NCBI RefSeq assembly: GCF_008274585.1
Contig: NZ_VTRT01000013.1
Coordinates: 1 to 47,236, forward strand
Origin: Pedobacter sp. BS3
GTDB taxonomy: Bacteria; Bacteroidota; Bacteroidia; Sphingobacteriales; Sphingobacteriaceae
Direction of reading: 5' to 3'
DNA length: 47,236 nucleotides
Part shown: one piece after another, positions 13,968-47,236 of the stretch
How positions within the stretch are numbered: position 1 is the stretch's first letter
How the letters are laid out: the number at the start of each line of letters is the position of its first letter
Position numbers and translations under genes: made by a program
The notes under the pieces: generated by a model
Told to the model about the DNA's origin: nothing
Databases searched by the model: none
Seen by the model: only the letters and a program-made list of their open reading frames with translations

Positions 13968-14843
13968 ATGGATAAGCAAGTGCGTCCGGTGTCTGCATTC
14001 AACAATGAACTCAAGCTGAAAGGTTTCAATGTATTTGAGATTGAAAGCGACAGCCCGGCGGTGCGCTTTTACAGCCGGAAGGATTTTTATAAGATCTGCC
14101 TGACGACCGGCAAGAGCGTCATTCACTATGCCGACCGTAGCTTTGAAGCTGAAGGTACGGTTCTGTTTTTCGGTAACCCGCATATTCCATATTCATGGGA
14201 GACGATCTCCTCAGCTTATGCAGGCTATACTTGTCTTTTTTCGGAAGGATTTTTAAACACTTCTGAACGAGCAGCCATCTTGCAGCAGCCGCCTTTTTTC
14301 AGGGTAGGGGGAACTCCAATCTTAACCATCACCGAGCAGCAACGCATTTTTCTGAATGGCATATTCCGGAAAATGATCGAAGAGCAGCAGAGTGATTATG
14401 TTCACAAGGATGACCTGATCCGCAATTATATCAGCCTGATCATTCATGAAGCCATGAAGCTTCAGCCCTCTGAAAATTACGATCAGCATAAAAACGCGGC
14501 TTCCCGTATTACCGCTGTTTTCTTTGAGTTACTGGAGCGGCAGTTTCCCATTGAAAGTCCTGATAAACCTTTGCAGCTCAAAACAGCGCAGGATTATGCG
14601 CAACACCTTGCCCTTCATGTCAACTACCTGAACCGGGCGGTGAAAGAAGTTACCGGAAAGCCGACAACTGCCCATATTGCTGAACGGATCATCAGCGAGG
14701 CCAAAGCATTGTTACAACATACCGATTGGAATATCGCCGAAATTGCTTATGCCCTCGGCTTTGAATATCCAAGCTATTTCAATAACTATTTTAAACGCCT
14801 TACAGGTACCAATCCAATGTCGCTTCGTGTTGCCGAAGTTTGA
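13968..14843 (+). CDS. AraC-family transcriptional regulator
   Basis: The 291-residue protein has an N-terminal cupin-like sensing domain (about 20-150, with FFGNPHIPYSW) and a C-terminal double helix-turn-helix (about 195-290): KTAQDYAQHLALHVNYLNRAVKEVTGKPTTAHIAERII and then IAEIAYALGFEYPSYFNNYFKRLTGTNPMSLR, the AraC signature. It is immediately upstream of the acetyltransferase, dehydrogenase and cupin genes and probably activates them; the inducer is unknown. Confidence 0.93.
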   Translation: MDKQVRPVSAFNNELKLKGFNVFEIESDSPAVRFYSRKDFYKICLTTGKSVIHYADRSFEAEGTVLFFGNPHIPYSWETISSAYAGYTCLFSEGFLNTSERAAILQQPPFFRVGGTPILTITEQQRIFLNGIFRKMIEEQQSDYVHKDDLIRNYISLIIHEAMKLQPSENYDQHKNAASRITAVFFELLERQFPIESPDKPLQLKTAQDYAQHLALHVNYLNRAVKEVTGKPTTAHIAERIISEAKALLQHTDWNIAEIAYALGFEYPSYFNNYFKRLTGTNPMSLRVAEV

Positions 14844-17251: not shown

Positions 17252-18886
17252 TTAATAATCTTTATTCTGCGGCATGGGTGTCACCCGGTTGGCATCAATT
17301 ACATCCTGTGGAATAGGCAACAAGGTATCCCGTGCAGTTACTACCGGCCCGGCTATATGGTTGTATTGTTTTACACGCGTTAGCCAGGTGTGTGTACGCA
17401 GCAGCGTATAGCGGCGTTCTTCTTCAGAGAATAGTTCCCTGGAACGTTCGTCTAAAATAAAGTCAAGCGTGATCTGGCTGGCATTCACCGTTGGTGCATG
17501 AGCACGGTTACGCAAGGCATTAATTGCATCGCTGGCCAGATCGGTGCGGCCTAATTTCAGATACGCTTCGGCCAGAATAAGGTATGTTTCTGCCGAGCGG
17601 ATATACATCTGATCGTTATATTGCCGGTCAACGTTAACGTCGATAGGGCTGGTATAATCCCATTTACGGGTACTGGGCCAGTTAGCATTAGAGTTTTTCT
17701 CTATAGAGGTACGGTTGAGTGCAACGACGTCTCCCAAATGATACCCGGCAGGAACACCGTTGGGGTTATTGATGGTATAAGAAAATCGCCAGGCGTAATC
17801 CGAACCGCGATCATCGCCGGCATCGTACAGGCTGATAGCATACAGGGTTGGCCCGAACCGCCCGATACCACGGCCGCCAAAGTCGGCTGATACCAGGAAT
17901 GGCGAAGTGCTTTTTCCGTCGGTACCTTTCATTGTAAATGAGTAATAGCGATTCACCCAATAACGGCGCATCAGGTTATCACCTTCGCCGCCAGCCACAT
18001 TTAATTCGTTTTGCAGTACCCAAAGCGCTTCGGTGTTACCTGCGCTGCGGTTCGCGTTGTCGCCGATAAACATATCGGTAAATGGGGTGCCGGGTTGCGA
18101 GGCATTAGCGCCAAAGCGTGCTGTTACCAGTTTATATTTGGCATTGGTGGTAACTTTTAACGCGTAATCCCTGGCTTTTTCGTTAAGCCCTTCGGCAAGA
18201 TAAAGCTCTGCCAGGTAATGCTGGGCAGCGCCTTTGGTCATTTCGCCGGCATTGGAGGGTTCTTCGGGTAAATATTGTTCGGCAAATAACCAGTCATCTT
18301 CCATCGCTTTGCGTACTTCTGCTACGCTGTTGCGTGGCCAATCCTCGCGGATATTTTCTCCCGACGATTCTTCAAGCGTTAGCGGAACATCGCCCCATAA
18401 ATAGGTTAAATGGCGGTAACACCAGGCCCGGATGAAACGGGCATTGGCCAGTATCTCATTTTTCTGAGCTTCTGTCCAGTCTATACCCGGGTTTTCTGCC
18501 CGGTGGATAATGGTATTGGCCGCGTTAATGGTTTCATACAGCCAGGCCCATTCTTTGCTGAACTGTGGTTGCGAGGAGTTGTTATTGGCTCCGAATTTAT
18601 TGAAGATGTCTTCTAAAACGCTGGCATAGTTACCATACGCGTTATCAACACCGATGAATGCCGGCCCCAGCATCATGGAGTTTGGCGAGCCATAATCAAT
18701 ACCCGACCGTGAGCGTCTGACCTCGTTATACAGCCCGTTGATACCGGCATTAAAACCTGCTTTATTGGTATAGAGGTTGTCGGCAAGTAAGGTGCCCGGG
18801 GCGTCTATTTTTAGTGCATCTTTTGAACAACCGGCCAATAAGGTGATGGTGAAGATGCCGGTTGCTAATTTTTTATGTAGTTTCAT
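17252..18886 (-). CDS. SusD/RagB-family outer-membrane glycan-binding lipoprotein
   Basis: The start is placed at the Met at 18884-18886, giving 544 residues. The longer in-frame reading (to 18916) adds ten residues, overlaps susC and spoils the signal peptide. The lipobox is LLAGC with Cys20. SusD features follow: FNAGINGLYNEVRRS, the TPR-like helices (NEILANARFIRAWCYRHLTYLWGDVPL, about 150-176; MTKGAAQHYLAELYLAEG), and the C-terminal RSAETYLILAEAYLKLG and LDFILDERSRELFSEEERRY motifs. It forms the surface lid of the SusCD transporter and binds the oligosaccharide. It is 19 bases downstream of susC in the same operon. Confidence 0.95.
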   Translation of the reverse strand: MKLHKKLATGIFTITLLAGCSKDALKIDAPGTLLADNLYTNKAGFNAGINGLYNEVRRSRSGIDYGSPNSMMLGPAFIGVDNAYGNYASVLEDIFNKFGANNNSSQPQFSKEWAWLYETINAANTIIHRAENPGIDWTEAQKNEILANARFIRAWCYRHLTYLWGDVPLTLEESSGENIREDWPRNSVAEVRKAMEDDWLFAEQYLPEEPSNAGEMTKGAAQHYLAELYLAEGLNEKARDYALKVTTNAKYKLVTARFGANASQPGTPFTDMFIGDNANRSAGNTEALWVLQNELNVAGGEGDNLMRRYWVNRYYSFTMKGTDGKSTSPFLVSADFGGRGIGRFGPTLYAISLYDAGDDRGSDYAWRFSYTINNPNGVPAGYHLGDVVALNRTSIEKNSNANWPSTRKWDYTSPIDVNVDRQYNDQMYIRSAETYLILAEAYLKLGRTDLASDAINALRNRAHAPTVNASQITLDFILDERSRELFSEEERRYTLLRTHTWLTRVKQYNHIAGPVVTARDTLLPIPQDVIDANRVTPMPQNKDY

Positions 18887-18905
18887 GACTTTTCTGTTTA
18901 AGCTT

Positions 18906-21836
18906 TTACAATCCAATGTTTAACCCGAAAATAAACTCCTTTTGTAAAGGGATGCCTTTCTGATCTGTCAGTTCGGGATCCATACCCGTCCATTTGGTAA
19001 TGGTAAACAGGTTCCGGGCATTAACGTATACCCGTAGCTTATTTACGTGAATATCCCGCAGCACTTTCTGCGGAATATCATACGAAAATGAAATATCCTT
19101 TACCCGAAGATAGCTATCGCTTTGAAAAATATGTGCAGGTGCCGTGTTTGCTCCCACAACGTTGGCATAATATTCATTAGTAGGATTATCCGGCGTCCAC
19201 CAGTTCTTTTTAACCGTGTTATACCTTACGCCCGAGTTTACATCATCTATCAACAACGGGTTACTTCTGCTGGTGCCCTGTACACCCTGCATAAATACAT
19301 AGAATGTGAAGTTTTTATAGGCGAAGGTGTTACCTAAACCCCAGATGAAATCGGGTTGCCGGCTGCCGATAATGGTTTTGTCGCGAGGATTGATCAAGCC
19401 ATCGTGATTTAAATCGACAACTTTTGCATAGCCCGGTTTGGCATTGTATTTAGCGGCTTCTGTTGCTTCATCAAGCTGCCATACACCAGCATAGATGTAG
19501 TCAAAATTTACATTGATAGGCTGCCCGATAAACCAGGTATTCAGCGTATCGTTCTTGCCATCGCCGTACAGGTCTAAAATTTTGTTACGTACAAATGCAA
19601 AGGTAGCGTTGCTGTTCCATGAAAACCCGCTTTCTGTTTTCATATTGATGCTGTTCAGGCTAAGATCGAGACCTTTATTGGCTGTTTTACCCAGGTTCTG
19701 TACAATGGAACTGCTGCCATGCACAGATGATATCAGGCGTTTCAGCAGCAGGTCGTGTGTTCTTGCCGAATAGACATCCAGGCTTCCCTGTATACGACCG
19801 TTCAGCAGGCCAAAGTCAACCCCAAGGTTTGCAGTATTGGTAGTTTCCCAGCGCAGGTTGGGATTGGCCAATGTTTTGGGAATGTACCCGGGTGCTGTAG
19901 AGGAGCCATTAACATAAGATCGTTCTAACATGGCGGCTAATGTCCGGTAAGCACCTACGGCCTGGTTACCATTACTGCCGTACGATAAACGGAGCTTCAG
20001 GTTAGATACCCATTTAGTATTAAAAAATTTCTCGTTACTGATATTCCAACCCAGGGCAACAGACGGGAAGAAGCCGTATTTATAGTTCTCGCCAAAACCG
20101 GAAAATCCGTCTCTACGGCCCGTCAGCGTTAGCAGGTAACGGCTATCGTACGAGTAATTGATACGGGCCATCTGTGAGATCAGCGTTTCTTTGGTATAGC
20201 CGGCTGCGGGCAATGCAGAAAGAGCGACATTGGCCTGATAATAGGTTAAAACGTCGTTCGGGAAACCGGTAGCATCCAGCGTATCTGCTTTGTTTACATC
20301 ATACTGGTAGCTATATAATCCTGTAAAGCTGATGGTATGCTTGCCGAATGTGCGGTTGTAATTTAAGATGTTTTCAATCAATAAATTATTTTCCAGGTTG
20401 TTACGGGTTCCTAAGCTACCCTTATTTTGTACACCTGTACGGGTATTCATGCCGTAATAGGTTTTCTGCTCACGCGATGTATACTCTATACCGGTATTTA
20501 AACGGTATGATAATCCTTTAATGAACGGCAGGTCTATATTCAGGTAATTGTTGGTTAGCACCTTATAGGTTTCATCGTCATTGCTGGCCAGGGTAGGAGC
20601 AAGGGGATTGGCAAAAAAGGTGTCCTCCGGCCAGGGATATATGGTAGGAGAGCCGTCGGGGTTGTATGCTGTAGTAAGCGGGTTAAAGGTAAATGCGCCG
20701 TATTCGCCGGCAAAAGTGGCCGGCAGGCCGCTGCGGTTATTGTAGGATAATTGCGTATTGGTACCGAATGTTAACCATTTGGTCACATTAGATTCTACGT
20801 TAACACGGGTTGAAACACGCTTGAAATCATCGTTAATGGCAATTCCCTTAACACCCAGGTAGGTGCCTGACAAATAATAACGGGTATTCTCACTGCCGCC
20901 GCTAACACCCAGCGAATGTTGTGTCCGCTGGCCGGTCCGGGTTACCAGGTCGGCCCAGTTCGGGAAATTTTTAGAGCTGTATACCGCCTGTTCTGAAGCG
21001 GTAATCACACCCGGCTCGCGGGTTTGCTTAAACTGGTAAAACTCTTCGGGACTCATCATATCCGGCAGGTTGGCATAATGCTGTATGCCATAAAAACCGT
21101 CATAAGTAATGGTTGGCTTGCCTCGTGTTCCTTTTTTAGTGGTAATAAGTATTACTCCGTTAGAACCACGGGAACCGTATATGGCCGCTGATGAAGCATC
21201 TTTCAATACTTCAATGGATTCAATATCCGTAGGATTAATATCCGATATGCTGCCATTATAAATAATACCATCTAACACGATCAGCGGCGTATTGCTGGCT
21301 GTAATAGAATTGCTGCCCCGAATCTGGATATCATTGCTGTTGCCTTCGGCTCCGGCACTGCTCTGGTCAATAGATACGCCGGCAACAGCTCCCTGTAAAG
21401 CCTGTGCGAAATTGGTGTTGGGCAGGTCTTCCAGCCGTTTCCTGTCTACCGATGCTACGGCCCCGGTAATATCTTTCTTCTTTTGGGTTCCGTATCCCAC
21501 AACAACAACTTCTTCCAGGTTGGTAATGGCCGATGCCAGTACGGCATTAACGGTTGTTTTACCCGAAACCGGAATTTCCCGGGTAATAAATCCTACGGAA
21601 GTAAAAACCAGCATATCGTTATTGCCGGCTTCTATCTGGTAATTTCCGTTAGCATCGGTAACCACTTTTTTGCCTGTACTTTTTACAGCTACTGTTGTTC
21701 CCGGTAAAGGGCCGTTATCGCTCTGAGCGGTAACCTTACCCTTAATAATCTCTGCCTGAGCTAACGCTATACTGCTATAGCATAATGCAGCAAACAGCAG
21801 GAAGAGATGAATTGGATGTTTAAGTAATCGTTTCAT
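18906..21836 (-). CDS. SusC/RagA-family TonB-linked outer-membrane transporter
   Basis: The 976-residue protein has a signal peptide (about 1-26), a CarboxypepD-reg-like domain (about 30-113, with GKVTAQSDNGPLPGTTVAVK and GNYQI), the SusC plug signature EEVVVVGYGTQKKKDITGAV (about 113-132) and IRGSNSITASNTPLIVLDGI, then a long beta-barrel ending in LQKEFIFGLNIGL. There is no N-terminal secretin/TonB (STN) signalling domain, so control by an ECF-sigma/anti-sigma pair is unlikely. It imports oligosaccharides with SusD. It is transcribed divergently from the GH2 gene across a 391-bp region. Confidence 0.96.
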   Translation of the reverse strand: MKRLLKHPIHLFLLFAALCYSSIALAQAEIIKGKVTAQSDNGPLPGTTVAVKSTGKKVVTDANGNYQIEAGNNDMLVFTSVGFITREIPVSGKTTVNAVLASAITNLEEVVVVGYGTQKKKDITGAVASVDRKRLEDLPNTNFAQALQGAVAGVSIDQSSAGAEGNSNDIQIRGSNSITASNTPLIVLDGIIYNGSISDINPTDIESIEVLKDASSAAIYGSRGSNGVILITTKKGTRGKPTITYDGFYGIQHYANLPDMMSPEEFYQFKQTREPGVITASEQAVYSSKNFPNWADLVTRTGQRTQHSLGVSGGSENTRYYLSGTYLGVKGIAINDDFKRVSTRVNVESNVTKWLTFGTNTQLSYNNRSGLPATFAGEYGAFTFNPLTTAYNPDGSPTIYPWPEDTFFANPLAPTLASNDDETYKVLTNNYLNIDLPFIKGLSYRLNTGIEYTSREQKTYYGMNTRTGVQNKGSLGTRNNLENNLLIENILNYNRTFGKHTISFTGLYSYQYDVNKADTLDATGFPNDVLTYYQANVALSALPAAGYTKETLISQMARINYSYDSRYLLTLTGRRDGFSGFGENYKYGFFPSVALGWNISNEKFFNTKWVSNLKLRLSYGSNGNQAVGAYRTLAAMLERSYVNGSSTAPGYIPKTLANPNLRWETTNTANLGVDFGLLNGRIQGSLDVYSARTHDLLLKRLISSVHGSSSIVQNLGKTANKGLDLSLNSINMKTESGFSWNSNATFAFVRNKILDLYGDGKNDTLNTWFIGQPINVNFDYIYAGVWQLDEATEAAKYNAKPGYAKVVDLNHDGLINPRDKTIIGSRQPDFIWGLGNTFAYKNFTFYVFMQGVQGTSRSNPLLIDDVNSGVRYNTVKKNWWTPDNPTNEYYANVVGANTAPAHIFQSDSYLRVKDISFSYDIPQKVLRDIHVNKLRVYVNARNLFTITKWTGMDPELTDQKGIPLQKEFIFGLNIGL

Positions 21837-36407: not shown

Positions 36408-36452
36408 TTAAGCTATTATTAAGCTTTTTTTAATGGTTGCCGGATTACTTAG
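36408..36452 (+). promoter_or_regulatory. Direct-repeat activator module upstream of GH92 (module 1)
   Basis: Heptamers TTAAGCT (36408), TTAAGCT (36419) and TTAATGG (36430) start exactly 11 bases apart. After the third come 8 bases and then TTACTTAG (36445-36452), a -7-like element. AACCAATTTAAACC (36462-36475) follows and is shared with the other modules. No ordinary -33 TTG box is present, as expected for an activator-dependent promoter. The GH92 start is 147 bases further on. Confidence 0.65.
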
Positions 36453-36478
36453 CGGGCATTTAACCAATTTAAACCGCT

Positions 36479-36625
36479 ATGTACAGTTACAGCTTTATCC
36501 CCTTTTTTAGAATAAAAACCGCTTTCCGTATGGTCGGCTGGTATTCGGGTATTTTTTCAACTTCCACGGAATTTATTTACGACGATTTAATCACGATCCA
36601 TGTATATGCGCCTTTCAAATCATAA
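36479..36625 (+). CDS. Possible leader ORF upstream of GH92
   Basis: ATG 36479 opens a 48-codon reading that overlaps the GH92 start by 26 bases in another frame. The ATG comes 17 bases after the start of the AACCAAT element, almost the same spacing as the GH95 start (18 bases), so ribosomes could engage here. The product (MYSYSFIPFFRIKT...) matches no family I know. It could be a regulatory leader peptide or chance. Confidence 0.25.
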   Translation: MYSYSFIPFFRIKTAFRMVGWYSGIFSTSTEFIYDDLITIHVYAPFKS

Positions 36626-38873
36626 ACTATCTGTTATTTTCAGAACTTCTGTATACTGTTTCATTATTGGTTGTCATTTGGGTTACGCTCAGAACCGAAC
36701 GGCTGCTGGTGAGCCTGGTAGTTTAAAATACGTTGATCCGCGTATCGGTAACGTAGGGCAATTGCTTGAGCCTACCCGGCCAACGGTGCAGCAGCCTAAT
36801 CAACTGATCAGAATGTACCCGCAACGGAAAGATTATCTGGATGACCAGATCGATAATTTTCCGCTGACAATTGTATCGCATAGACTTGGACAAGTGTTTT
36901 CGGTTAAGCCCGATATTATGCCGGTTGATACCAGCCGATGGCACAAAAGGATGCCTTATGACCATGATCTGGAAATTACCCGGCCCTGGTATTATTCAAC
37001 ATATCTGGTTGACGATGAGATACAGGTTGAGTTTACGCCAGGTAAAAAAACAGGAATTTATCGTTTTACGTTTCCCCAAAAGGCAGTAAAGAACTTATTG
37101 TTCGGTAGCTATAACAGTGGGCGATCTGACTTTAAGTTCATTTCTCCAACCGAAATTACCGGTACGGAGACCTATCACAACGATATCAGAGTTTACCTGT
37201 ATGGGGTATTCAGCCAGGGAGGCAGTACCGGGGTGATCAAAAGCGGAAAACCGGTTTCGTCTAATGAAACATCGGGTTGGAGATCACAAGCCTTTATTAC
37301 ATTTACCGGGCAGGAGTCGGCTATTGTATTCAAATATGCCATTTCTTATATCAGTCCTGAGCAGGCCAAACGAAATTTTGAAAGTGAGCTGAAGGAGCAA
37401 AGTTTTGAAACAATTAAGGATGCAGCAGAAAAGACCTGGGATGCCGTAATTAATCAGATAGAGGTAGCTGGCGGGACAGAAGCTCAGAAGCGGTCTTTTT
37501 ATACCGCTTTATATCGTTGTTATGAGCGGATGGTCAACATCTCGGAGGATAACCGTTATTACAGCGGATTTGATAAGAAAGTCCACGAAAGCAGCAGGCC
37601 GTTTTATACAGACGACTGGACCTGGGATACTTACCTAGCGCATCATCCATTGCGGACCATCCTGAACCCCTCCCTGGAAGAAGATATGGTTAATTCGTAT
37701 GTGGAAATGTATCGTCAGGGTGGGTGGATGCCTACCTTTCCGGTGTTGTTTGGTGATCACGCCTGCATGAACGGTTTCCATTCTTCAATCATGATCCTGG
37801 ATGTCTACCGAAAAGGCTTACGGAATTTTGATGTGAATAAGGCTTACGAGGGTATGCTAAAAAATGCCGACGAGGCTACCCTGATTCCCTGGCGTACTGG
37901 GCCAAAAACGAAGCTTGATGACTTTTATCACGAGAAAGGTTATTTCCCGGCCCTGGCTGAGCATGAAAAAGAAACGGTGATAGAGGTAGACTCTTTCGAG
38001 AAGCGTCAGGCGGTAGCGGTAACTCTGGGTGCCAGTTTTGACGATTGGGCGGTAGCGCAGTTGGCCAAAGAATTGGGACGGCAACAGGATTTCGAACGAT
38101 TTACCAAACGGACCTTGAATTATAAAAATCTGTGGAATGACGATAAAAATATGTTTATCCCCAAAGATGATCAGGGTAATTTCATTGACATTGATCCGAA
38201 GTTTGACGGTGGCATGGGTGGTCGCGATTATTACGATGAGAACAACGGCTATACCTATAAATGGCAGGTGCAGCATGATATACCCGGACTGATCTCACTG
38301 ATGAAGGGAAAAGATAATTTTGAGCAGGAGCTGGATAAATTATTCAGGGAAGGGCTGGAGCGAAGCAAGTACGCGTTTTGGGCTAAGTTTCCCGATGCTA
38401 CCGGTCTTATCGGGCAGTATTCTATGGGTAATGAACCCAGTTTTCATATCCCTTACTTGTATAACTTTACCAATTCCCCCTGGAAAACCCAGAAGCACAT
38501 CAGGCTTTTGCTTGATACCTGGTTTAAAGACAATATTTTTGGTATACCCGGAGATGAGGATGGCGGCGGCATGTCGGCATTTGTAGTGTTCTCATCTATG
38601 GGATTTTATCCGATAACACCCGGACTACCGGTGTACACTATCGGAAGTCCTGTATTTCAGAAAGTTACTATTAAGCTTCCCAATGGTAAACAGTTTGCTG
38701 TGCTGGCCAATCATTGCTCTGTAAAGAATAAGTACATTCAGCAGGCAAAATTTAACGGACAACCTCTAAACACACCTTGGTTTACGCATGCGCAACTGTT
38801 GGAAGGAGGCACCCTGGAACTGGAGATGGGGCCGAAACCGAATAAAATTTGGGGAAGGCCGGCAGCCAGGTAA
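36600..38873 (+). CDS. GH92 family glycosidase (alpha-mannosidase-like), divergent
   Basis: The 757-residue protein has a signal peptide (about 1-31), an N-terminal beta-sandwich and a C-terminal (alpha/alpha)6 barrel. Family hallmarks are GNEPSFHIPYLYNF with the likely acid Glu612, GDEDGGGMSAFVVFSSMGFYP with the likely base residues Asp652/Asp654, and YTDDWTWDTYLAHHPL. GH92 enzymes are Ca2+-dependent exo-alpha-mannosidases using an inverting mechanism. The N-terminal motif is GNVGQLLEPTRPTVQQPNQ instead of the usual GTGG-H--PGA type, and the -1 subsite His after GNEPS is Phe, so specificity may differ. It is followed 47 bases later by the ROK gene. Confidence 0.88.
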   Translation: MYMRLSNHKLSVIFRTSVYCFIIGCHLGYAQNRTAAGEPGSLKYVDPRIGNVGQLLEPTRPTVQQPNQLIRMYPQRKDYLDDQIDNFPLTIVSHRLGQVFSVKPDIMPVDTSRWHKRMPYDHDLEITRPWYYSTYLVDDEIQVEFTPGKKTGIYRFTFPQKAVKNLLFGSYNSGRSDFKFISPTEITGTETYHNDIRVYLYGVFSQGGSTGVIKSGKPVSSNETSGWRSQAFITFTGQESAIVFKYAISYISPEQAKRNFESELKEQSFETIKDAAEKTWDAVINQIEVAGGTEAQKRSFYTALYRCYERMVNISEDNRYYSGFDKKVHESSRPFYTDDWTWDTYLAHHPLRTILNPSLEEDMVNSYVEMYRQGGWMPTFPVLFGDHACMNGFHSSIMILDVYRKGLRNFDVNKAYEGMLKNADEATLIPWRTGPKTKLDDFYHEKGYFPALAEHEKETVIEVDSFEKRQAVAVTLGASFDDWAVAQLAKELGRQQDFERFTKRTLNYKNLWNDDKNMFIPKDDQGNFIDIDPKFDGGMGGRDYYDENNGYTYKWQVQHDIPGLISLMKGKDNFEQELDKLFREGLERSKYAFWAKFPDATGLIGQYSMGNEPSFHIPYLYNFTNSPWKTQKHIRLLLDTWFKDNIFGIPGDEDGGGMSAFVVFSSMGFYPITPGLPVYTIGSPVFQKVTIKLPNGKQFAVLANHCSVKNKYIQQAKFNGQPLNTPWFTHAQLLEGGTLELEMGPKPNKIWGRPAAR

Positions 38874-38920
38874 GGCATTAACGCAGAACTAAAATATAGA
38901 AAAGGTTATAATACAACTTT

Positions 38921-39811
38921 ATGGAAAATTCTTATAATACTGTAACCGTTGGGGTAGATGTAGGAGGGTCGCACATTACTGCCGGAGTGATTGATCTTGC
39001 TGCTGGACTGATCTTAAACGGCTCCGTTATTCGCGAGAAGCTTGATACACAAGGGTCGCTTGATGAAATTCTCGACAGGTGGGCAACTGTGATTCATCAT
39101 GCCTTTTCTTCTTCAGGTAAGAGCAATAGTATATTAAAACTTGGTATGGCTATGCCCGGCCCGTTTGATTATGAAGATGGCGTGAGCCTGATGGTTGGCC
39201 AGAATAAGTACGATGCCTTTTACGGGCATAACATCAAACAACTACTTGCAAACCGGCTTAATATTAGCAAGACAGACATTTTGATGATGAATGATGCCAG
39301 CTGTTTTTTAAAAGGCGAAGTATATGGCGGTGTGGCTAAAGGCTATGAACATGTGATCGGCCTTACGCTGGGCACAGGCCTCGGTTCAGCTAAATATAGT
39401 TCATCATTTACATACGATGCGGAGTTGTGGTGCCACCCGTTTATGGATGGTATTGTAGAAGATTATCTGTCAACACGCTGGTTTGTAAGTCGGTTTAAAG
39501 ATCATACCGGTTTAAATATCAATGATGTAAAAGAATTAAGTCTGTATGTAAACAGCAATGTTTACGCATTGGAGGTTTTCAAGGAATTTGGGCGTAATCT
39601 TGGGGCTTTTTTGTGTGAATTTATTAATATGGAGAACCCGCAGGTGGTTGTTCTGGGTGGAAATATTGCCAATGCATTCGATTTATTTATCAGCGAATGT
39701 CAGGAGATATTGCAAAGCCGGTCAATTCGTATTCCTATTTTAAGATCTGTTTTGGGAGAGGATGCATCGCTTATTGGGGCAGCAAGTCTTTGGGCAAACA
39801 TACTGGTTTAG
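38921..39811 (+). CDS. ROK-family sugar kinase
   Basis: The 296-residue protein has the ATP-binding VGVDVGGSHITAGVID (about 9-24), the catalytic base Asp125 in MMNDASCF, and the second phosphate motif GLTLGTGLGSA (about 147-157). The usual ROK zinc-binding CxCGxxGC motif after the sugar site is absent, replaced by YDAELWCHPFMDG; no N-terminal helix-turn-helix is present, so it is a kinase type rather than a repressor. It probably phosphorylates a hexose released by the neighbouring enzymes (mannose or glucose are guesses). It is co-oriented with GH92 and probably in one transcript. Confidence 0.88.
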   Translation: MENSYNTVTVGVDVGGSHITAGVIDLAAGLILNGSVIREKLDTQGSLDEILDRWATVIHHAFSSSGKSNSILKLGMAMPGPFDYEDGVSLMVGQNKYDAFYGHNIKQLLANRLNISKTDILMMNDASCFLKGEVYGGVAKGYEHVIGLTLGTGLGSAKYSSSFTYDAELWCHPFMDGIVEDYLSTRWFVSRFKDHTGLNINDVKELSLYVNSNVYALEVFKEFGRNLGAFLCEFINMENPQVVVLGGNIANAFDLFISECQEILQSRSIRIPILRSVLGEDASLIGAASLWANILV

Positions 39812-39979
39812 AATTTAAATCATTGACAATTAACTCTATGGGTTTTTTGAGGATAGTTTCTTGTAATTTATATACAAATAACTGCTATTTTGTGAATAAA
39901 AAATTATCTAATCTGATAGTGCAAGATAAATGTATGAGCTGTTTTTAAAATCAAAAGAGCTTTAGATATTTGTTAATAA

Positions 39980-42634
39980 ATGAAGCAGGGGTATCAGACA
40001 TATCTGTATTTAATTCTGTTATTTGCTCACCTATACAGTCCGCTGATAGCCCTTTCGCAATCGTATGGGCTGGCATTCTCCAGTTATGAGGCTGTTCAGG
40101 ATTCCCGGACAGCGCTCGATCTGACTCCCGACCGGGAATTGTGCCTGAGTAATAATTTTGAGCTTTCGTTTGATTTAGCTTTGATCTCTGGTCAGCCTGA
40201 ATATTTCGGGTACGTATTCCGCTTAATAGACAATAATAAAAATAATATCGACCTGGTTTGCGATAATGCTACCGGTATTTCCCGTAACTTCACTTTGGTT
40301 GCCGGAAGCAGTTCATCGGTTATTCGCTTTGATGAACCCGATATAACGGCATTTAATACCTGGAATAAGGTAATATTGAAAGCAGATTTAGCCCATCATA
40401 CACTTACATTTAACCTGGGGCCCAAAAAGATCATCCAGAGGATTAACACTGGACAGGGTAACTGCTATAAAATACTTTTCGGCGCAAACAACTTCGGTAC
40501 ATTTAAAACCACGGATGTGCCGCCTATGCGCATTCGTAATATTATAATAAAGGAAAATAAGGTGCCGAAGTACGGTTGGGCGTTAAATGAGGCTGAAGGG
40601 GATATTGCTTTAGATTCAATATCGGGAAAAAATGCACGGGTAAATAATCCTTTGTGGATCAAAAAAATGCATTACGACTGGGAGGTTTGTGCTAAAATGA
40701 CCGTGCAGGGAGCGGCTAGTGTGGCGTTTAATAAGAAGGATGAACAGATATATATTGTAGGATTAGACTCTTTATACACTTTTTCGGTAGGGAATAATCA
40801 TGTAAACAGCTTGAAATATAAGTCCGGCCGATTAAATCTGTTAGAAGGTAACCAGTCGTATTTTGACGATAGCCGATCAAAGCTGTATACTATTTATCTG
40901 GATCAGCGGCAATTTGTAACATTCGATTTCAGTACGCAAACATGGAGCGGTAATTTTGATACTTCCGGTCCGATAACAGATAACTGGCATTTTAATAAAT
41001 TTTACGCTCCATCAGACAGCTCATTCTACATTTTTAACGGATATGGCCATTACGTATATAAAAATGATATTAAGCGTTATCATCTGCCTGATGAGAACTT
41101 GCAGGATATCATGCCGGCTAATGAGGTGTATTCTCCGCGTTATCTTGCAGCCCTGGGTGTTACTGATGACGGAGCCTATATTATCGGCGGTTACGGCAGT
41201 AAAAGCGGACAGCAAATTCTAAACCCTAAAAATTGGTATGACTTGCTGTATTTCAGTTTAAAAGACAGAAGGGTAAAGAAATGTTATGAGCTTAAAAGTC
41301 AGGGTGAGGATTTTGTTTTTGCCAATTCATTGGTTATTGATTCCAAAACCCGTTCGTATTATGGACTGGTATTTCCTAAACATAAATTCAATACGGCATT
41401 ACAATTAATCAAGGGATCATTAGATACAGCTTCGTTTATACCAGTAGGCGATACTATTTCCTATAAATTTCATGATATACAATCGTTTGCCGATCTGTAT
41501 TACTGCCCAACCAGCGGTAAGTTTATAGCCGTAACACTGTTCCATAATGAACGTGACCAAACCGAAGTGGTGATATATGCTTTAGCCAGCCCACCGTTAA
41601 AGGCCGATCTGAAATTCATCCCGGCAAGTTCCGCGGTCACCCGAAAATGGGTGTTATTTCTGCTTGCCGGGTGTCTGGTGCTTATCGGGTTATTTATAGC
41701 TGTCAGAAAACGCAGGCTGAAACAAAACCTAGCTAACATACAGCCCGTACATGCTGGTGGTGAGGCAGTTGCAATGCTTAGGGAACAATCTGCAGTACCC
41801 TCAACAGAAGATACAGGAGTTAAAGCAACTGAACCGATGGCGGCCGTGAATTTAACATCCGGTGTTGAAAATTTGCATGAAACATATCCTGCGAAAGATG
41901 AAGAAGCTGTAACGCGTAATGCCATTTACCTGTTTGGTGGGATGCAGCTGTTTGATAATGAAGGGAATGATATTACACGCTTATTTACCCCGCTTATTAA
42001 AGAACTTTTCCTGGTTATCTTGCTGTACACTATCCGATGGGAGCGGGGTATTAGTTCAGAAAAGCTAAAGGAACTGCTATGGTTTGATAAAACTGCTGAA
42101 AGCGCCCGCAATAACCGTTCTGTGAATATTGCAAAGTTAAAGTCCATATTAGACAAGATGCAGAGTTGCCAGATATCCAAAGAGACGGGATATTGGAAAA
42201 TTAACGCCGATTACAGCCAGTTACAAGTAGATTATCACAAGTATCTTACCATTGTAAAAGATAAAGGAAAACTTGATAAGCACAAGATACAGCAGCTAGC
42301 AGAAATTACCCAGCGGGGAAGTTTTTTATCAAACGTTGAATATGAATGGCTTGATTCGTTCAAATCTGAAATATCCAATGATGTAATTGATACATACCTG
42401 CACTTTGCAAATGCCATTGAAGTAACAGATGATCCGGAGTTCCTGGTTAAAATAGCCAACTACATCTTTTATTTTGACCCGGTAAATGAGGAAGCCATGG
42501 TGATTAAATGTAAAGCCCTGGTATGTCTGGGCAAGCATTCACTGGCAAAAAATACATTTGAGAGCTTTTGCAGGGAATATAAATTGCTATACGACGAGGA
42601 TTTTGAAAAATCTTTCCAGGAAATCCTGGAATAA
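39980..42634 (+). CDS. Membrane-tethered SARP-type regulator with LamG and propeller sensor
   Basis: The 884-residue protein has a signal peptide (about 1-27), a LamG/concanavalin-like domain (about 30-225: NNFELSFDLALISGQ, NTWNKVILKADLAHHTL), a Kelch-like propeller (about 230-550: AASVAFNKKDEQIYIVGLD, DDGAYIIGGYGSKSG), one membrane helix (about 557-577) followed by RKRRLK, and a linker. The cytoplasmic part has a winged helix (about 647-735: IYLFGGMQLFDNEGNDIT, GISSEKLKELLWFD, NNRSVNIAKLKSILDKM) and a helical BTAD/TPR-like domain (about 740-884). That is the SARP/AfsR DNA-binding arrangement on a sensor membrane protein. No kinase or receiver domain is present. I infer that it senses glycan outside the cytoplasm and activates the modules at 36408, 42871 and 46791. 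Confidence 0.82.
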   Translation: MKQGYQTYLYLILLFAHLYSPLIALSQSYGLAFSSYEAVQDSRTALDLTPDRELCLSNNFELSFDLALISGQPEYFGYVFRLIDNNKNNIDLVCDNATGISRNFTLVAGSSSSVIRFDEPDITAFNTWNKVILKADLAHHTLTFNLGPKKIIQRINTGQGNCYKILFGANNFGTFKTTDVPPMRIRNIIIKENKVPKYGWALNEAEGDIALDSISGKNARVNNPLWIKKMHYDWEVCAKMTVQGAASVAFNKKDEQIYIVGLDSLYTFSVGNNHVNSLKYKSGRLNLLEGNQSYFDDSRSKLYTIYLDQRQFVTFDFSTQTWSGNFDTSGPITDNWHFNKFYAPSDSSFYIFNGYGHYVYKNDIKRYHLPDENLQDIMPANEVYSPRYLAALGVTDDGAYIIGGYGSKSGQQILNPKNWYDLLYFSLKDRRVKKCYELKSQGEDFVFANSLVIDSKTRSYYGLVFPKHKFNTALQLIKGSLDTASFIPVGDTISYKFHDIQSFADLYYCPTSGKFIAVTLFHNERDQTEVVIYALASPPLKADLKFIPASSAVTRKWVLFLLAGCLVLIGLFIAVRKRRLKQNLANIQPVHAGGEAVAMLREQSAVPSTEDTGVKATEPMAAVNLTSGVENLHETYPAKDEEAVTRNAIYLFGGMQLFDNEGNDITRLFTPLIKELFLVILLYTIRWERGISSEKLKELLWFDKTAESARNNRSVNIAKLKSILDKMQSCQISKETGYWKINADYSQLQVDYHKYLTIVKDKGKLDKHKIQQLAEITQRGSFLSNVEYEWLDSFKSEISNDVIDTYLHFANAIEVTDDPEFLVKIANYIFYFDPVNEEAMVIKCKALVCLGKHSLAKNTFESFCREYKLLYDEDFEKSFQEILE

Positions 42635-42662
42635 ATATTCAAATTCAAAGCTCTTTATGTTG

Positions 42663-42707
42663 ATTAATGTTTTATTAATCATTTGTTATTTTCCGAAAGT
42701 TTACTTT
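42663..42707 (+). promoter_or_regulatory. Weaker direct-repeat module after the regulator gene (module 4)
   Basis: TTAATGT (42663), TTAATCA (42674) and a degenerate TTATTTT (42685) are again 11 bases apart, followed by 8 bases and TTACTTTG (42700-42707). The first two also form a palindrome (TGATTAAT / ATTAATCA, 42660-42680), so chance or another protein cannot be excluded. It lies between the regulator's stop and the terminator at 42761, with no gene between. Confidence 0.35.
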
Positions 42708-42712
42708 GATCT

Positions 42713-42789
42713 GTAATGGTTATTAAAGGTTTTTACCTTTCTGTTTAATTAATTGGTTCAAAAAAACTCCTGCCCACCAGGAGTTTTTT
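42713..42789 (+). ncRNA. Possible small RNA ending at the 42761 terminator
   Basis: If module 4 is a promoter, transcription should start near 42713 and stop at the hairpin 42761-42789, giving a non-coding RNA of about 77 bases. It would contain a small AAAGGT/ACCTTT stem (42725-42740) and the terminator stem. The alternative is simply the 3' untranslated region of the regulator mRNA. Confidence 0.25.
42761..42789 (+). terminator. Intrinsic terminator after the regulator gene
   Basis: AAAAAACTCCTG (42761-42772) and CAGGAGTTTTTT (42778-42789) are perfect 12-bp arms around CCCAC, with the T run inside the right arm. It closes the transcription unit of the regulator and isolates it from GH95. 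Confidence 0.88.
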
Positions 42790-42870
42790 GTTTATCACAT
42801 CCATTGTTATCACGTCAAAGAATGAAGTACAGGAAAACCGGGTTAGATAATTACCATTGAACATGCACTA

Positions 42871-42914
42871 TTAATTATTTTTTAATCTTTTATTAGGCTT
42901 TAATCACTTATTTG
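42871..42914 (+). promoter_or_regulatory. Direct-repeat activator module upstream of GH95 (module 2)
   Basis: TTAATTA (42871), TTAATCT (42882) and TTAGGCT (42893) start 11 bases apart. Eight bases after the third heptamer is TTATTTG (42908-42914), a -7-like element with TTTG at its end. AACCAATAAAAACC (42923-42936) follows, and the GH95 ATG is at 42941, giving a leader of about 20 bases. No -33 TTG is present. Confidence 0.7.
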
Positions 42915-42940
42915 TGAGCTAAAACCAATAAAAACCTGTT

Positions 42941-45439
42941 ATGCATAAGTTTTTGTGCCAATTGGCGATATGCAGTACAATACTATTTTCTGGCTGCTTA
43001 TTACCAGGGGTTTCGATGTCGAAGGATAAACATTTAAAGCTTTGGTATGATACGCCGGCTGGCGATACCTGGGAAGCCGCATTACCCGTTGGAAATGGTC
43101 GGCTGGCAGCTATGGTATTTGGTAATCCTATTAATGAAGTGCTCCAATTAAACGAATCATCGGTATGGAGCGGAGGCCCTAACCGTAACGACAATCCAAA
43201 TGCGTTAAAAGTGTTACCGCAGATCCGGAAACTGATTTTCGAGGGCCGGTATAAAGAGGCCAATGATCTTGCTGTTAAAAACATCCAGTCGGAGCGGATT
43301 AACGGTATGTGCTACCAGCCTGTTGGCGAACTGCATCTGGATTTCATGGGGCATCAGCAATATCGTAATTACTATCGTGAGCTGGATATGGAAACTGCTG
43401 AAACAAGAACATCATATATGGTGAATGGAGTAACATTTACCCGTTCTGTTTTTGCATCTGTACCAGCGCAGGTTATTGTAATGCATCTTACTGCCAGTAA
43501 ACCAGGCAGTATCACATTCAATGCCGCTCTCTCAAGTCTTCAGCGATCAGACGTAGCTGTTGATAGTGTAAATCAGTTGATATTGTCCGGTATTAGTGGC
43601 GATAGAGACGGGGTGCCGGGTCAGGTAAAATTTAAATCCCTGGTTCGATTTAAAACTAAGGGAGGGCAGGTGACCGCATCCGGTAAGACCGTGCATATAA
43701 CCGGTGCAGATGCCGTTACCCTTTATATCTCCATCGCCACTAACGTTGTACGGTATAATGATATCAGCGCCAGCGAAACAGAACAGGCAGAAAAGTACCT
43801 GGAGAGAGCATGGAATATATCTTATAATGAATTGATAAAAGCGCATATTGCATCTTACCGATACTATTTTAATCGTGTAAAACTTGATTTAGGAACAACG
43901 AAGGCAACTAAACAGCCTACAGATGTACGATTAAGTGCTTTTGCCAATGGTGATGACCCGCAACTGGCCACTTTATATTTTCAATTTGGCAGGTACCTGC
44001 TTATTTCTTCATCGCAACCTGGTGGTCAGCCGGCCAATTTACAGGGCATTTGGAATAACCGGATGGATCCACCCTGGGGGAGCAAATACACTATCAATAT
44101 TAATACGGAAATGAATTACTGGCCTGCCGAGGTTACCAGTTTGCCGGAGATGCATGAGCCGTTGGTACAGATGGTCAGGGAACTTTCTGAAACAGGTGCC
44201 GAAACAGCCAGGGTAATGTATGGCGCAAGAGGCTGGGTGGCACATCATAACACGGATTTGTGGCGTATCACCGGCCCTGTTGATGGTATATACTGGGGAA
44301 TGTGGCCTATGGGTGGTGTGTGGCTTAGCCGGCATTTGTGGGATAAGTACCTGTATAATGGCGACAAAAATTACCTGCAGTCCGTTTATCCGGTACTGAA
44401 AGATGCTGCACGGTTTTGCCTGGATTTCCTGGTGCAGGAACCATCGCATAACTGGCTGGTTATTTCACCATCTATGTCGCCCGAAAACAGTCCTTCCGTT
44501 CATCCTGAGATCTCTATTGCCGCCGGAACCACTATCGATAATCAATTGGTATTTGAGTTGTTTTCTAATGTAATTAATGCGAACAGGATATTAAAAATGG
44601 ATTCTGTATTTGCAGATAGTCTCCGGATTGCCCGCGATCGCTTACCGCCAATGCAGGTTGGCCGCTACGGACAGTTACAGGAATGGCTTCAGGATTGGGA
44701 CAGCCCCAACGACAAAAACCGGCATGTATCGCACCTGTTCGGGTTATATCCGTCTAACCAGGTATCGCCCTACCGCACGCCAGCGCTATTTGCTGCCGCT
44801 AAAAAAACGCTGCTGATGCGGGGCGATATCTCTACCGGATGGTCTATGGGATGGAAAGTAAATTTGTGGGCCCGTCTGCTGGATGGTAATCATGCCTTTA
44901 AACTTATTCAGAATCAGCTTACACCGGCAGGATTAAATCAGGGCGCACAGAACAGTGGCGGCGGTACATATCCTAATTTATTTGATGCGCATCCGCCTTT
45001 CCAGATAGATGGAAATTTTGGTTGTACGGCCGGCATTGCCGAAATGTTATTGCAAAGCCATGATAGTTATATCTTTCTGCTACCTGCTCTTCCCGATGCC
45101 TGGAAGAATGGAAGAGTAAGTGGCTTAAAAACGGTAGGAGGGTTTGAAATAACCGGTATGCGTTGGGAAAATGGCCATCTTACACAACTCAAAATTAGAT
45201 CATGGTCTGGCGGAAACTGTCGTCTCAGGGCTTACGATAAGCTGCAATTAAAAGGAAAAGGTAAACTCAGGAAGGCAACAGGCAACAACCCTAATCCTTT
45301 TTTCAGTGTGCCTCAAACGGCGGAACCAATGGTTTCGGAAGCAGCTACGCTCACGCAGTATGAGCCTGCACATACCTTTCTGTATGATTTAAATACACAA
45401 CCCGGTAAAAGCTATAAGTTGAAAGTAATATCAAGATAG
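42941..45439 (+). CDS. GH95 alpha-L-fucosidase/galactosidase-type lipoprotein
   Basis: The 832-residue protein has a lipoprotein signal with lipobox LFSGC (Cys19), then the GH95 N-terminal super-sandwich (LKLWYDTPAGDTWEAALPVGNGRLAAMVFGN; LNESSVWSGGPNRND) and the (alpha/alpha)6 barrel. Residues corresponding to the known catalytic set are Asn386/Asn388 in ININTEMNYWPAEV, Glu515 in SMSPENSP and Asp682 in FDAHPPFQIDGNFG (correspondence inferred from motifs). Members remove alpha-1,2-L-fucose or alpha-L-galactose by inversion. It is probably on the periplasmic or outer face. It forms an operon with the downstream GH71/99-like gene, 28 bases away. Confidence 0.94.
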   Translation: MHKFLCQLAICSTILFSGCLLPGVSMSKDKHLKLWYDTPAGDTWEAALPVGNGRLAAMVFGNPINEVLQLNESSVWSGGPNRNDNPNALKVLPQIRKLIFEGRYKEANDLAVKNIQSERINGMCYQPVGELHLDFMGHQQYRNYYRELDMETAETRTSYMVNGVTFTRSVFASVPAQVIVMHLTASKPGSITFNAALSSLQRSDVAVDSVNQLILSGISGDRDGVPGQVKFKSLVRFKTKGGQVTASGKTVHITGADAVTLYISIATNVVRYNDISASETEQAEKYLERAWNISYNELIKAHIASYRYYFNRVKLDLGTTKATKQPTDVRLSAFANGDDPQLATLYFQFGRYLLISSSQPGGQPANLQGIWNNRMDPPWGSKYTININTEMNYWPAEVTSLPEMHEPLVQMVRELSETGAETARVMYGARGWVAHHNTDLWRITGPVDGIYWGMWPMGGVWLSRHLWDKYLYNGDKNYLQSVYPVLKDAARFCLDFLVQEPSHNWLVISPSMSPENSPSVHPEISIAAGTTIDNQLVFELFSNVINANRILKMDSVFADSLRIARDRLPPMQVGRYGQLQEWLQDWDSPNDKNRHVSHLFGLYPSNQVSPYRTPALFAAAKKTLLMRGDISTGWSMGWKVNLWARLLDGNHAFKLIQNQLTPAGLNQGAQNSGGGTYPNLFDAHPPFQIDGNFGCTAGIAEMLLQSHDSYIFLLPALPDAWKNGRVSGLKTVGGFEITGMRWENGHLTQLKIRSWSGGNCRLRAYDKLQLKGKGKLRKATGNNPNPFFSVPQTAEPMVSEAATLTQYEPAHTFLYDLNTQPGKSYKLKVISR

Positions 45440-45467
45440 ATAAATAAAACTCCATTATATAAAAATT

Positions 45468-46745
45468 ATGAACAAAGTCCTTATTACATGTGCAGGTATA
45501 TTGCTGTTAGCTATGCAGCTTTATGCACAAAAAACGAATAAACACGCTATTGTAACACAATATCCCACATATAAGGGGCTGGTAATGGCCGGTTACCAGG
45601 GGTGGTTCAGACCACAAAAAGACGGTACTTTCTTTCAGGATGAGAAACGCATCTATATCGATATGTGGCCGGACGTGAGTGAATATGAAATTACGTATCC
45701 AACCGGCTTAAAGTTAAGAGATGGCAGCACAGCACGGTTTTTTAGTTCGGCCGATAAAAGCACGACAGCGCTACATTTTAAGTGGATGAAGGATTACGGT
45801 GTTGACGGCGTTTTCATGCAGCGTTTTTACGATGCTGCCAGAAAGGGTTCTAGGAGGCAGGTTGAAGCAGGAATTTTAAGCAATGCGTTAGAAGCCGCCT
45901 CAAAAAATAACCGGGCTATAGCATTAATGTACGATCTGTCCGGTCTTCATCCTGGCGAAGATTGCTCTTTACTGATAGAAGACTGGAAGTACCTGGTAGA
46001 CTCATTAAAGATAACCAATCAGAAAGGCAATAAAACATATCTTCATCACAATGGCAAGCCGGTTGTTGCTATCTGGGGGCTCGGTTTTCCAGACAGACCA
46101 TATAATATACGTAGCATCGGGATAGAGCAATTGATCAACTTTCTTAAAAACGACCCCCAATATGGCGGTTGTGCTGTAATGCTGGGAGTACCTACGTTTT
46201 GGCGTACATTGGATGCCGACTGTGTAAATGATCCCTACCTGCATGATCTGATCAAGCAGGCCGATATTGTGTTACCCTGGATGGTGCAGCGTTTTACACC
46301 ATTGTTGCATAATGATATGGACCGTTACCGGGATATCATTATTAAAGATCTGCAATGGTGTAAAGATAATGCCGTTAGTTATGTCCCCTGTATATACCCG
46401 GGGTTTAGCTGGCATAATTTAAGTATGCATGAATTCCCGGACGATATAAAGCCCGTCGGTTCAATTCCACGCCAGGGCGGACGTTTCTATTGGCAGCAAA
46501 TTACTACAGCCCTCAAGGCTGGAACAGAGATGTTATATGTAGCCATGTTTGACGAGGTAAACGAGGGAACGGCAATTTTTAAATGTACCGATCAACCGCC
46601 GGTAAGTGCTACCGCCCAATTTATAGATATGGACGGAAAGCCATCTGACCATTATCTGTGGTTAACCGGGCAGGCGGCAAAGATGTTACGGAATGAAATC
46701 CCATTTTCATTAAAACAACCTGAACGTTATCAGGATAAGAAATAA
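45468..46745 (+). CDS. GH71/GH99-like glycosidase
   Basis: The 425-residue protein has a signal peptide (about 1-20, YAQ). The barrel starts with KGLVMAGYQGWFRPQKDG, then HFKWMKDYGVDGVFMQRFYD and YLHHNGKPVVAIWGLGF, and ends with TEMLYVAMFDEVNEGTAIFK, where Glu363 and Glu366 have the three-residue spacing of the GH99 catalytic pair. This is the GH71/GH99-like superfamily seen in Bacteroidota, whose characterised members are endo-alpha-mannosidases/mannanases or alpha-1,3-glucanases. With GH92 nearby, action on an alpha-mannose-containing glycan is plausible but not proven. Confidence 0.85.
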   Translation: MNKVLITCAGILLLAMQLYAQKTNKHAIVTQYPTYKGLVMAGYQGWFRPQKDGTFFQDEKRIYIDMWPDVSEYEITYPTGLKLRDGSTARFFSSADKSTTALHFKWMKDYGVDGVFMQRFYDAARKGSRRQVEAGILSNALEAASKNNRAIALMYDLSGLHPGEDCSLLIEDWKYLVDSLKITNQKGNKTYLHHNGKPVVAIWGLGFPDRPYNIRSIGIEQLINFLKNDPQYGGCAVMLGVPTFWRTLDADCVNDPYLHDLIKQADIVLPWMVQRFTPLLHNDMDRYRDIIIKDLQWCKDNAVSYVPCIYPGFSWHNLSMHEFPDDIKPVGSIPRQGGRFYWQQITTALKAGTEMLYVAMFDEVNEGTAIFKCTDQPPVSATAQFIDMDGKPSDHYLWLTGQAAKMLRNEIPFSLKQPERYQDKK

Positions 46746-46790
46746 TATTTATTATTCTGATTATCAGTGTTTTGTATTAAAAATTAAATG

Positions 46791-46835
46791 TTAATCAATT
46801 ATTAATCTTTTATTAAGTGCCCGGGCGGTTATTTG
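46791..46835 (+). promoter_or_regulatory. Direct-repeat activator module at the right edge (module 3)
   Basis: TTAATCA (46791), TTAATCT (46802) and TTAAGTG (46813) start 11 bases apart, followed by 9 bases and TTATTTG (46829-46835). ACCAATATAACC (46840-46851) follows, as in the other modules. It faces rightwards, so its target gene begins beyond the window. Confidence 0.65.
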
Positions 46836-46851
46836 AGTTACCAATATAACC

Positions 46852-47236
46852 GAAGATATAATTTATAGAAAAACTAACCGCTAAGCAAACTATGTATCCT
46901 CTTTTACCACCTTAATTGTGTAGTTCAGGCCGTAAAATCACCAGGTGATGGATGGGCTGTGTATGAGAGCCCTGGCCCGTCATAACAAACGCATACCGAT
47001 TACTACGATGTATAACCAAGTTAAAACTAAATTATAAATGAAATGGCAGAAAATACCTACTTGAAATGAACATGATTATAACCGGCGATGATGTACTGTT
47101 TTTAAACCTGAATATCATCAGATTATTTAGAAAATGCTCAATTGCTACATAATAATATTAACGTGTTGTGCGATTAAAAAGCCAAAGCATATTTTAAATG
47201 ATTTAGCGGTCTGTTATTCTGTTTATTGATGAACTG
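46852..47236. other. Long untranslated stretch after module 3
   Basis: No supportable gene in these 385 bases. A CTAACCGCTAAGC ... ATGTA stretch (about 46877-46894) resembles the leader of GH92 (AAACCGCTATGTAC, 36471-36484), and the ATG there opens only a 7-codon reading. It is probably the leader of the next gene (a susC-like gene would be expected), which lies outside. Confidence 0.5.

Follow-up and report, generated by a model that had tools for sequence, protein, structure and literature searches.

Introduction

SARP regulators, studied in the antibiotic clusters of Actinomycetes, bind direct repeats spaced 11 or 22 bp apart, the 3′ repeat lying 8 bp from the −10 element (PMC10936776). 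Protomers of AfsR sit side by side, one on each repeat, and form a docking place for sigma region 4 (PMC10936776), while the main operator of PimR is described as three heptamers with 4-bp spacers, three being the optimum number (PMC5930380). For polysaccharide utilization loci (PULs) the control types named are SusR, hybrid two-component systems (HTCS), and extracytoplasmic function (ECF) sigma/anti-sigma pairs; the reported spacing of the repeats is 67 or 77 bp for SusR and averages 21 bp for HTCS (PMC3878776). Here we describe three promoter modules in a stretch of 47,236 nucleotides from Pedobacter sp. BS3 (contig NZ_VTRT01000013.1, forward strand), hereafter the window. They are very likely the operator-promoters of one PUL regulon, run by a membrane-anchored, SARP-like one-component activator that is encoded in the same window (39980–42634, + strand).

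Operator modules in the window

All three modules lie on the + strand. The first (36408–36451) reads TTAAGCT/TTAAGCT/TTAATGG, followed by an 8-base gap and TTACTTA (36445–36451), with genes for a GH92 glycoside hydrolase and a ROK-family protein downstream. The second (42871–42914), upstream of a GH95 gene, reads TTAATTA/TTAATCT/TTAGGCT, followed by an 8-base gap and TTATTTG (42908–42914), and the third (46791–46835) TTAATCA/TTAATCT/TTAAGTG, a 9-base gap, and TTATTTG (46829–46835). The original prediction, which placed modules at 36408, 42871, and 46791, was exact in its coordinates, and the heptamers starting with TTAA or TTAG, the 11-bp spacing, and the gaps of 8, 8, and 9 bases are all as it described them. 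The heptamers are direct repeats at one of the distances characteristic of SARP operators, and the predicted −10-like element stands 8, 8, and 9 bases beyond the 3′ repeat, close to the 8 bp of SARP sites.

The window matches the repeat pattern three times. In 100 dinucleotide shuffles of it the mean was 0.01, and no shuffle reached three. Genome-wide counts were judged against a backwards control. Across the 4.81-Mb genome the repeats alone gave four matches (backwards control, two), and the repeats with a looser element gave the same four places (control, one). Repeats combined with the −10-like element gave three matches, all of them in the window, with none in the control. These three sites adjoin the regulator gene, and a search of the genome with the regulator returned the protein itself and nothing further. 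Since the search patterns were built from the three sites, less biased support must come from other loci.

The operator in loci of regulator homologs

Forty-two loci were examined, consisting of 20-kb stretches around homologs of the regulator plus L043; they include L045, the end of another contig of the same genome (C12, see below), which carries no regulator. The homologs reside in 139 genomes, part of which were viewed as loci picked for their spread of identity. The stretch encoding a Lachnospiraceae BTAD protein (L044) was not counted as a homolog locus, and the triple of TTAR motifs is absent there. In the 42 loci such triples at 11-bp spacing number 111 in intergenic DNA and zero within open reading frames (ORFs), both strands being counted, so that near-palindromic sites count twice; at spacings of 6–10 and 12–22 bp there are 0–9 intergenic and 0–5 in-ORF triples. 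Twenty control loci from the same genome set contain none at 11 bp. The control stretches do hold 21 triples at 14 bp, which probably represent a repeat array. A scan that made no assumption about TTAA, applied to 29 loci, recovered 12 triples with 11-bp spacing; no other spacing gave more than one. The same scan established no alternative operator in 14 loci that lack TTAA sites or have divergent regulators; these yielded three triples, one at 11 bp (in a C/G-rich CCGAA run of L081), one at 10 bp, and one at 22 bp.

The repeats are A/T-rich, and helically phased A/T tracts are a known promoter feature, which would suit an explanation of the triple TTAA blocks as UP-element-like or bent promoter DNA, or as a product of chance. 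We consider this highly improbable: the excess of TTAR is found at 11 bp and at none of the neighboring spacings, the control loci are empty at that spacing, 180 control upstream regions (see below) hold no site, and 0.01 occurrences are expected in the window.

Fifty-eight oriented sites (56 of them distinct) each have an ORF that starts no more than 450 bp downstream; sites without a same-strand ORF start within that distance, including the one at 46791, are excluded from this number. By best BLAST label, the next gene encodes SusC in 20 cases, GH92 in nine, and a regulator homolog in one; 14 are unclassified, and the rest are other PUL-type genes. The consensus of each repeat is TTAA(T/G)(C/G)(A/T), followed by T-rich positions and a last base that is mostly A. 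In a divergent subgroup (L068, L069, L071, and L079) the third repeat is TTAT instead of TTAA, a difference that might have arisen as operator and regulator co-evolved.

Downstream of the repeats, 16 of the 56 sites have a TTTG core that starts at +40 and five have one at +41; no other offset beyond +24 is represented more than once. The −7 box of the Bacteroidota is TAnnTTTG. The −7-like box of the operator (about T-W-W-T-T-T-G) resembles it, but the A position is mostly T, and the promoter may consequently be a weak one that needs help. Except for the repeat itself, the column frequencies give no sign of a conserved −33 box.

Association of the sites with the regulator

A leave-one-locus-out matrix was applied to 54 stretches at a threshold of 15 bits, upstream regions shorter than 80 bp being left unscored. 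Sites were found upstream of SusC genes in 31 of 45 cases, of other PUL-type genes in 36 of 87, of genes of other kinds in 16 of 211, and of regulator genes in two of 52; in the control loci the count is 0 of 180 genes. When loci are arranged by regulator identity, with the window excluded, a site is present in 25/29 at 45–60%, 5/6 at 40–45%, 8/8 at 35–40%, and 0/8 below 35%, or, pooled, in 38 of 43 loci at 35–60% versus none of the eight more distant ones. Twelve stretches were fetched after the matrix had been constructed. Five have sites (L110, L115, L116, L117, and L120), L110 being a locus from another family of the same class; the siteless ones are L118, L119, the distant-homolog loci L111–L114, and L121, which has no regulator.

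At the level of whole genomes, 399 from the family were searched, of which 139 have a regulator match; in a sample of the phylum the figure is 8 of 296. The genome of strain BS3 is included in both counts. The repeat-plus-element pattern was matched in 235 of the 399. Where the best match to the regulator has E < 1e-130, a cut for close homologs that was set after the tables of homologs and of sites had both been seen, the pattern occurs 3.39 times per genome against 0.38 in the backwards control (69 genomes); in the 70 genomes with a weaker homolog the values are 0.83 and 0.49.

Six genomes (G326, G329, G392, G320, G386, and G293) carry conserved extra operators away from the best regulator homolog, for example of a TTAAGCG..TATTAATAAnCTATTAAGTAT type common to them. 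These may belong to a wider regulon or to a paralogous regulator.

The repeats could, in principle, be the operator of another nearby regulator, of the AraC or hybrid two-component type, with the SARP-like gene a bystander. HTCS and SusR motifs of Bacteroides are likewise direct repeats upstream of susC-type operons (PMC3878776), and an AraC-type gene does lie within the window (13968–14843, + strand). This gene is more than 21 kb from the nearest site, the distances reported for HTCS and SusR repeats depart from the 11 bp seen here, and the putative binding domain of the SARP-like protein is akin to the SARP family, for which repeats at 11 bp are known. Moreover, the presence of sites tracks the similarity of the SARP-like gene in the pooled comparison given above, which was made for that gene only. 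We therefore judge a different regulator to be an unlikely owner of the sites.

The regulator

The regulator consists of 884 amino acid residues. An N-terminal hydrophobic stretch (about residues 7–26) precedes a sensor with Kelch repeats; one strong hydrophobic segment (about 555–577) is followed by KRRLK and then by the SARP-like C-terminal domain (about 645–884). The only Pfam families found in the protein are of the Kelch/beta-propeller kind. The last 240 residues were aligned for 37 of 43 homologs, omitting the near-duplicates L055, L057, L061, L063, and L070 and the truncated L067:19218–19997. Their conserved stretches, LWFDKS..SARNNRSVNIAKLK and FDPVNEEAM..KCKAL..LGKHSLAK, we take to be the SARP recognition-helix and BTAD patterns. 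Comparison of the 37-row profile with the Lachnospiraceae protein using hhalign gave a probability of 98.1 and an E value of 7e-14 over 195 columns, and that partner passes the Pfam BTAD model with E 1e-16. This match supports an OmpR-type winged helix followed by BTAD, as in the SARPs, and the order in a weak structure model is beta-beta, helices, wing, and TPR-like helices. A sequence search of PDB with the C-terminus, alone and as a 37-row profile, returned nothing up to E 1. NCBIfam has no family for the regulator, and two of three relatives gave weak matches below its cut-off.

With AfsR and PimR the regulator shares, then, the remote winged helix and BTAD homology, heptamers at 11 bp, 8 bp to a −10-like box, and, as in PimR, three repeats. 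It differs from them in the place of the domain, which here forms the C-terminus and comes after a Kelch sensor and a transmembrane segment, and in falling short of the Pfam BTAD cut-off; the candidate targets are glycan-utilization genes of the Bacteroidota. The repeat is also different, being TTAA(T/G) here and, for example, CGGCAAG in PimR (PMC5930380).

ToxR/CadC-type proteins tie an OmpR-type winged helix to a membrane sensor without a phosphorelay, as is proposed for the present regulator, which would reverse the order, with the sensor at the N-terminus and the DNA-binding domain at the C-terminus, and carry a BTAD-like part in addition. Within the Bacteroidota, SusR-like proteins of Bacteroides are membrane-spanning, with a periplasmic sensor, a cytoplasmic DNA-binding domain, and susC-type targets (PMC3878776), all of which are predicted here. 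SusR is set apart by operator spacing, its two sites being 67 or 77 bp apart as opposed to three at 11 bp. HTCS are also one-protein membrane regulators that adjoin susC/susD and use direct-repeat operators, but they possess kinase, receiver, and AraC domains and repeats at about 21 bp (PMC3878776), and Pfam finds none of those domains in the regulator.

Proposed mechanism

The modules match SARP sites in the length, spacing, number, and distance of their repeats, on which grounds a membrane-tied activator is proposed. The Kelch-containing N-terminal region would reside in the periplasm and sense a glycan fragment, and a single transmembrane helix would bear the cytoplasmic SARP-like domain with its winged helix and TPR-like BTAD. 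On receipt of the signal, protomers would bind to adjacent 11-bp repeats, one protomer to each, the three repeats of one helical turn each presenting the same face of the DNA. The last repeat would occupy the position of the −33 element, 8–9 bases ahead of the weak −7 box, and the bound protomers would, like AfsR, draw in RNA polymerase by way of sigma region 4. The targets would be GH92-ROK, GH95 with the GH99-like gene that follows it, and the SusC/SusD operon of contig C12. The operator, its spacing, its association with the regulator, the candidate targets, and the remote domain homology were found by computation; DNA binding, activation, the ligand, and the topology of the regulator are inferred.

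A regulator that binds these sites and represses the PUL until its ligand arrives could also make use of a last repeat overlapping the place of the −33 element. SARPs with such geometry are activators, however (PMC10936776). The −7-like box, furthermore, looks weak, and there is no conserved −33 box besides the repeat. Repression is, in our opinion, improbable.

Several points weigh against an activator of the SARP type acting at these modules. The regulator does not reach the Pfam cut-off for BTAD (PF03704), nor does any protein of the whole genome, and five of the 37 aligned C-termini match BTAD weakly (best E 0.03) amid unrelated families of similar strength. The structure model, built from a two-sequence input, is poor (pLDDT 52.6) and too weak to prove the fold. 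Its Foldseek comparison placed AfsR transcription complexes (8hvr, 8k60) in the top three rows at weak E values of 0.09–0.36, and VIA-align gave a Z of 7.4 for AfsR, a value tied with those of unrelated TPR proteins. On the DNA side, the −7-like box differs from the canonical TAnnTTTG, and the strand of each site was picked partly by a TTTG-like match, which favors the −7 signal though it does not fix the exact offset. Only three SusC upstream regions were scorable in the control loci, 14 of the 45 SusC genes in regulator loci have no site, and five loci in the 40–60% identity bands are siteless (L049, L059, L073, L118, and L119). Many loci are related, some nearly identical, and the leave-one-out test is to that extent not fully independent. 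The 260 genomes without a detected homolog still show an excess of the pattern (0.88 per genome, control 0.43), as do the 70 with a weaker one. Finally, the binding and transcription steps, as well as the adjacency of C12 to the window considered below, are matters of inference.

The failure to reach the Pfam cut-off is the reason why we file the regulator as SARP-like and do not claim strict membership of the SARP family. The original claim of a SARP-type regulator is supported by the remote homology to a BTAD protein in the hhalign match, with the correction that the regulator itself lies below the Pfam BTAD cut-off. The link that it drew between regulator and targets has gained support from the specificity of the spacing, the controls, the distribution over 399 genomes, the homologous loci (one of them in another family), and the remote BTAD homology.

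The end of the contig and a fourth site

The window spans contig C5 from end to end. Its last bases (47153–47236, + strand) comprise a presumed target-site duplicate, TAATATTA (47153–47160), and, from about 47161, an end of what is presumably an insertion sequence (IS); between the 46791 module and this IS end the window contains no + strand ORF of 30 or more amino acids. The window-end sequence occurs at eight places in the genome, none of them more than about 80 bases from the end of a contig. Presumed IS ends are located on contigs C4, C5, C7 (both ends), C12, C24, C25, and C27, and the assembly is thus broken at eight contig ends. The presumed multi-copy IS has the ends ACGTGTTGTGCGATTAAAAA and, where ends pair, target duplicates of 8–9 bp. 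The two kinds of recurrent end are presumably the two ends of one IS; no transposase was seen at them. C5 has one kind and C12 the other, and TAATATTA, an 8-bp palindrome, borders both. Judged by eye, C12 alone among the four ends of its kind fits C5. By the same reading the remaining ends pair as C24/C25, with a different 8-bp duplicate, and as C4/C7, with one of 9 bp; C27 and the second C7 end are left unpaired.

The end of C12 carries a fourth operator, detected with the looser patterns, which starts 88 bp upstream of a SusC start codon. SusC is followed by SusD, DUF3823, two GH43 genes, and GH3. The target duplicate contributes the first bases of this operator.

Gene order in relatives is similar to that of the window plus C12. 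The regulator, a GH99-like gene, SusC, SusD, and DUF3823 are consecutive in L047, SusC coming directly after the relative of the GH99-like protein; in L043, from a Mucilaginibacter relative, the regulator is followed by a site, SusC, SusD, DUF3823, and more genes of the C12 type; and in L048 the regulator adjoins a SusC and a SusD that share 74% and 81% identity with their C12 counterparts. Together, the IS ends, the shared 8-bp duplicate, and the synteny suggest that the C12 SusC operon is the immediate neighbor of the window. It is probably the off-window target of the 46791 module, with an IS that would now stand between them; before the insertion, about 370 bp would have separated that module from the fourth one. 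The SusC/SusD pair and glycoside hydrolases that define a PUL would be brought together through the C12 genes, provided that C12 is indeed the neighbor of the window.

Genes beside the modules

All the genes concerned lie on the + strand. Candidate target 1 is the GH92 glycoside hydrolase (36600–38873; Pfam PF07971, E 1e-157), and the ROK-family protein (38921–39811; PF00480, E 4e-23) is a candidate member of its transcript. Candidate target 2, beyond the regulator gene, is the GH95 glycoside hydrolase (42941–45439; PF22124, E 2e-183). The gene that follows it (45468–46745) encodes a distant GH99-like protein, whose match to PF16317 (E 1e-6) is below the Pfam cut-off. Relatives of this protein occur in or near several regulator loci, and it could represent an unrecognized group of glycoside hydrolases. 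Of the targets originally proposed, GH92-ROK and GH95 with the gene that follows it stand as candidates, and the third, given as an off-window gene, is corrected to what is most likely the SusC/SusD operon behind the IS.

A second SusD/SusC pair is present in the window (17252–21836, − strand), and the triple-repeat operator was not found upstream of it. The AraC-type gene mentioned above may be the controller of this pair.

Significance

Regulons of this form had been predicted to be undescribed in the phylum, and a SARP-type PUL regulon in Bacteroidota was indeed not among the literature matches listed, in a search that subscription papers and preprints lay outside. So far as computation shows, the regulator behaves like a SARP. 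On balance we favor, with somewhat less assurance than for the window itself, the view that it typifies a separate class of PUL control in the Bacteroidota, in which a membrane one-component activator combines a periplasmic Kelch sensor with a SARP-like output, triple 11-bp operators, and sigma docking as in the antibiotic clusters of Streptomyces, and which would serve many PULs of the Sphingobacteriaceae and, with L110, no fewer than one locus outside that family.

The finding would add to the known PUL regulators a type with a readable operator, making targets predictable from sequence in many genomes; close homologs, as defined above, are present in 69 of the 399 genomes of the family. The regulator and its operator offer a sensor-promoter pair for glycan-responsive expression. 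An operator geometry studied in the antibiotic clusters of Actinomycetes would also be extended to carbon catabolism, to another phylum, and to a membrane-tied format.

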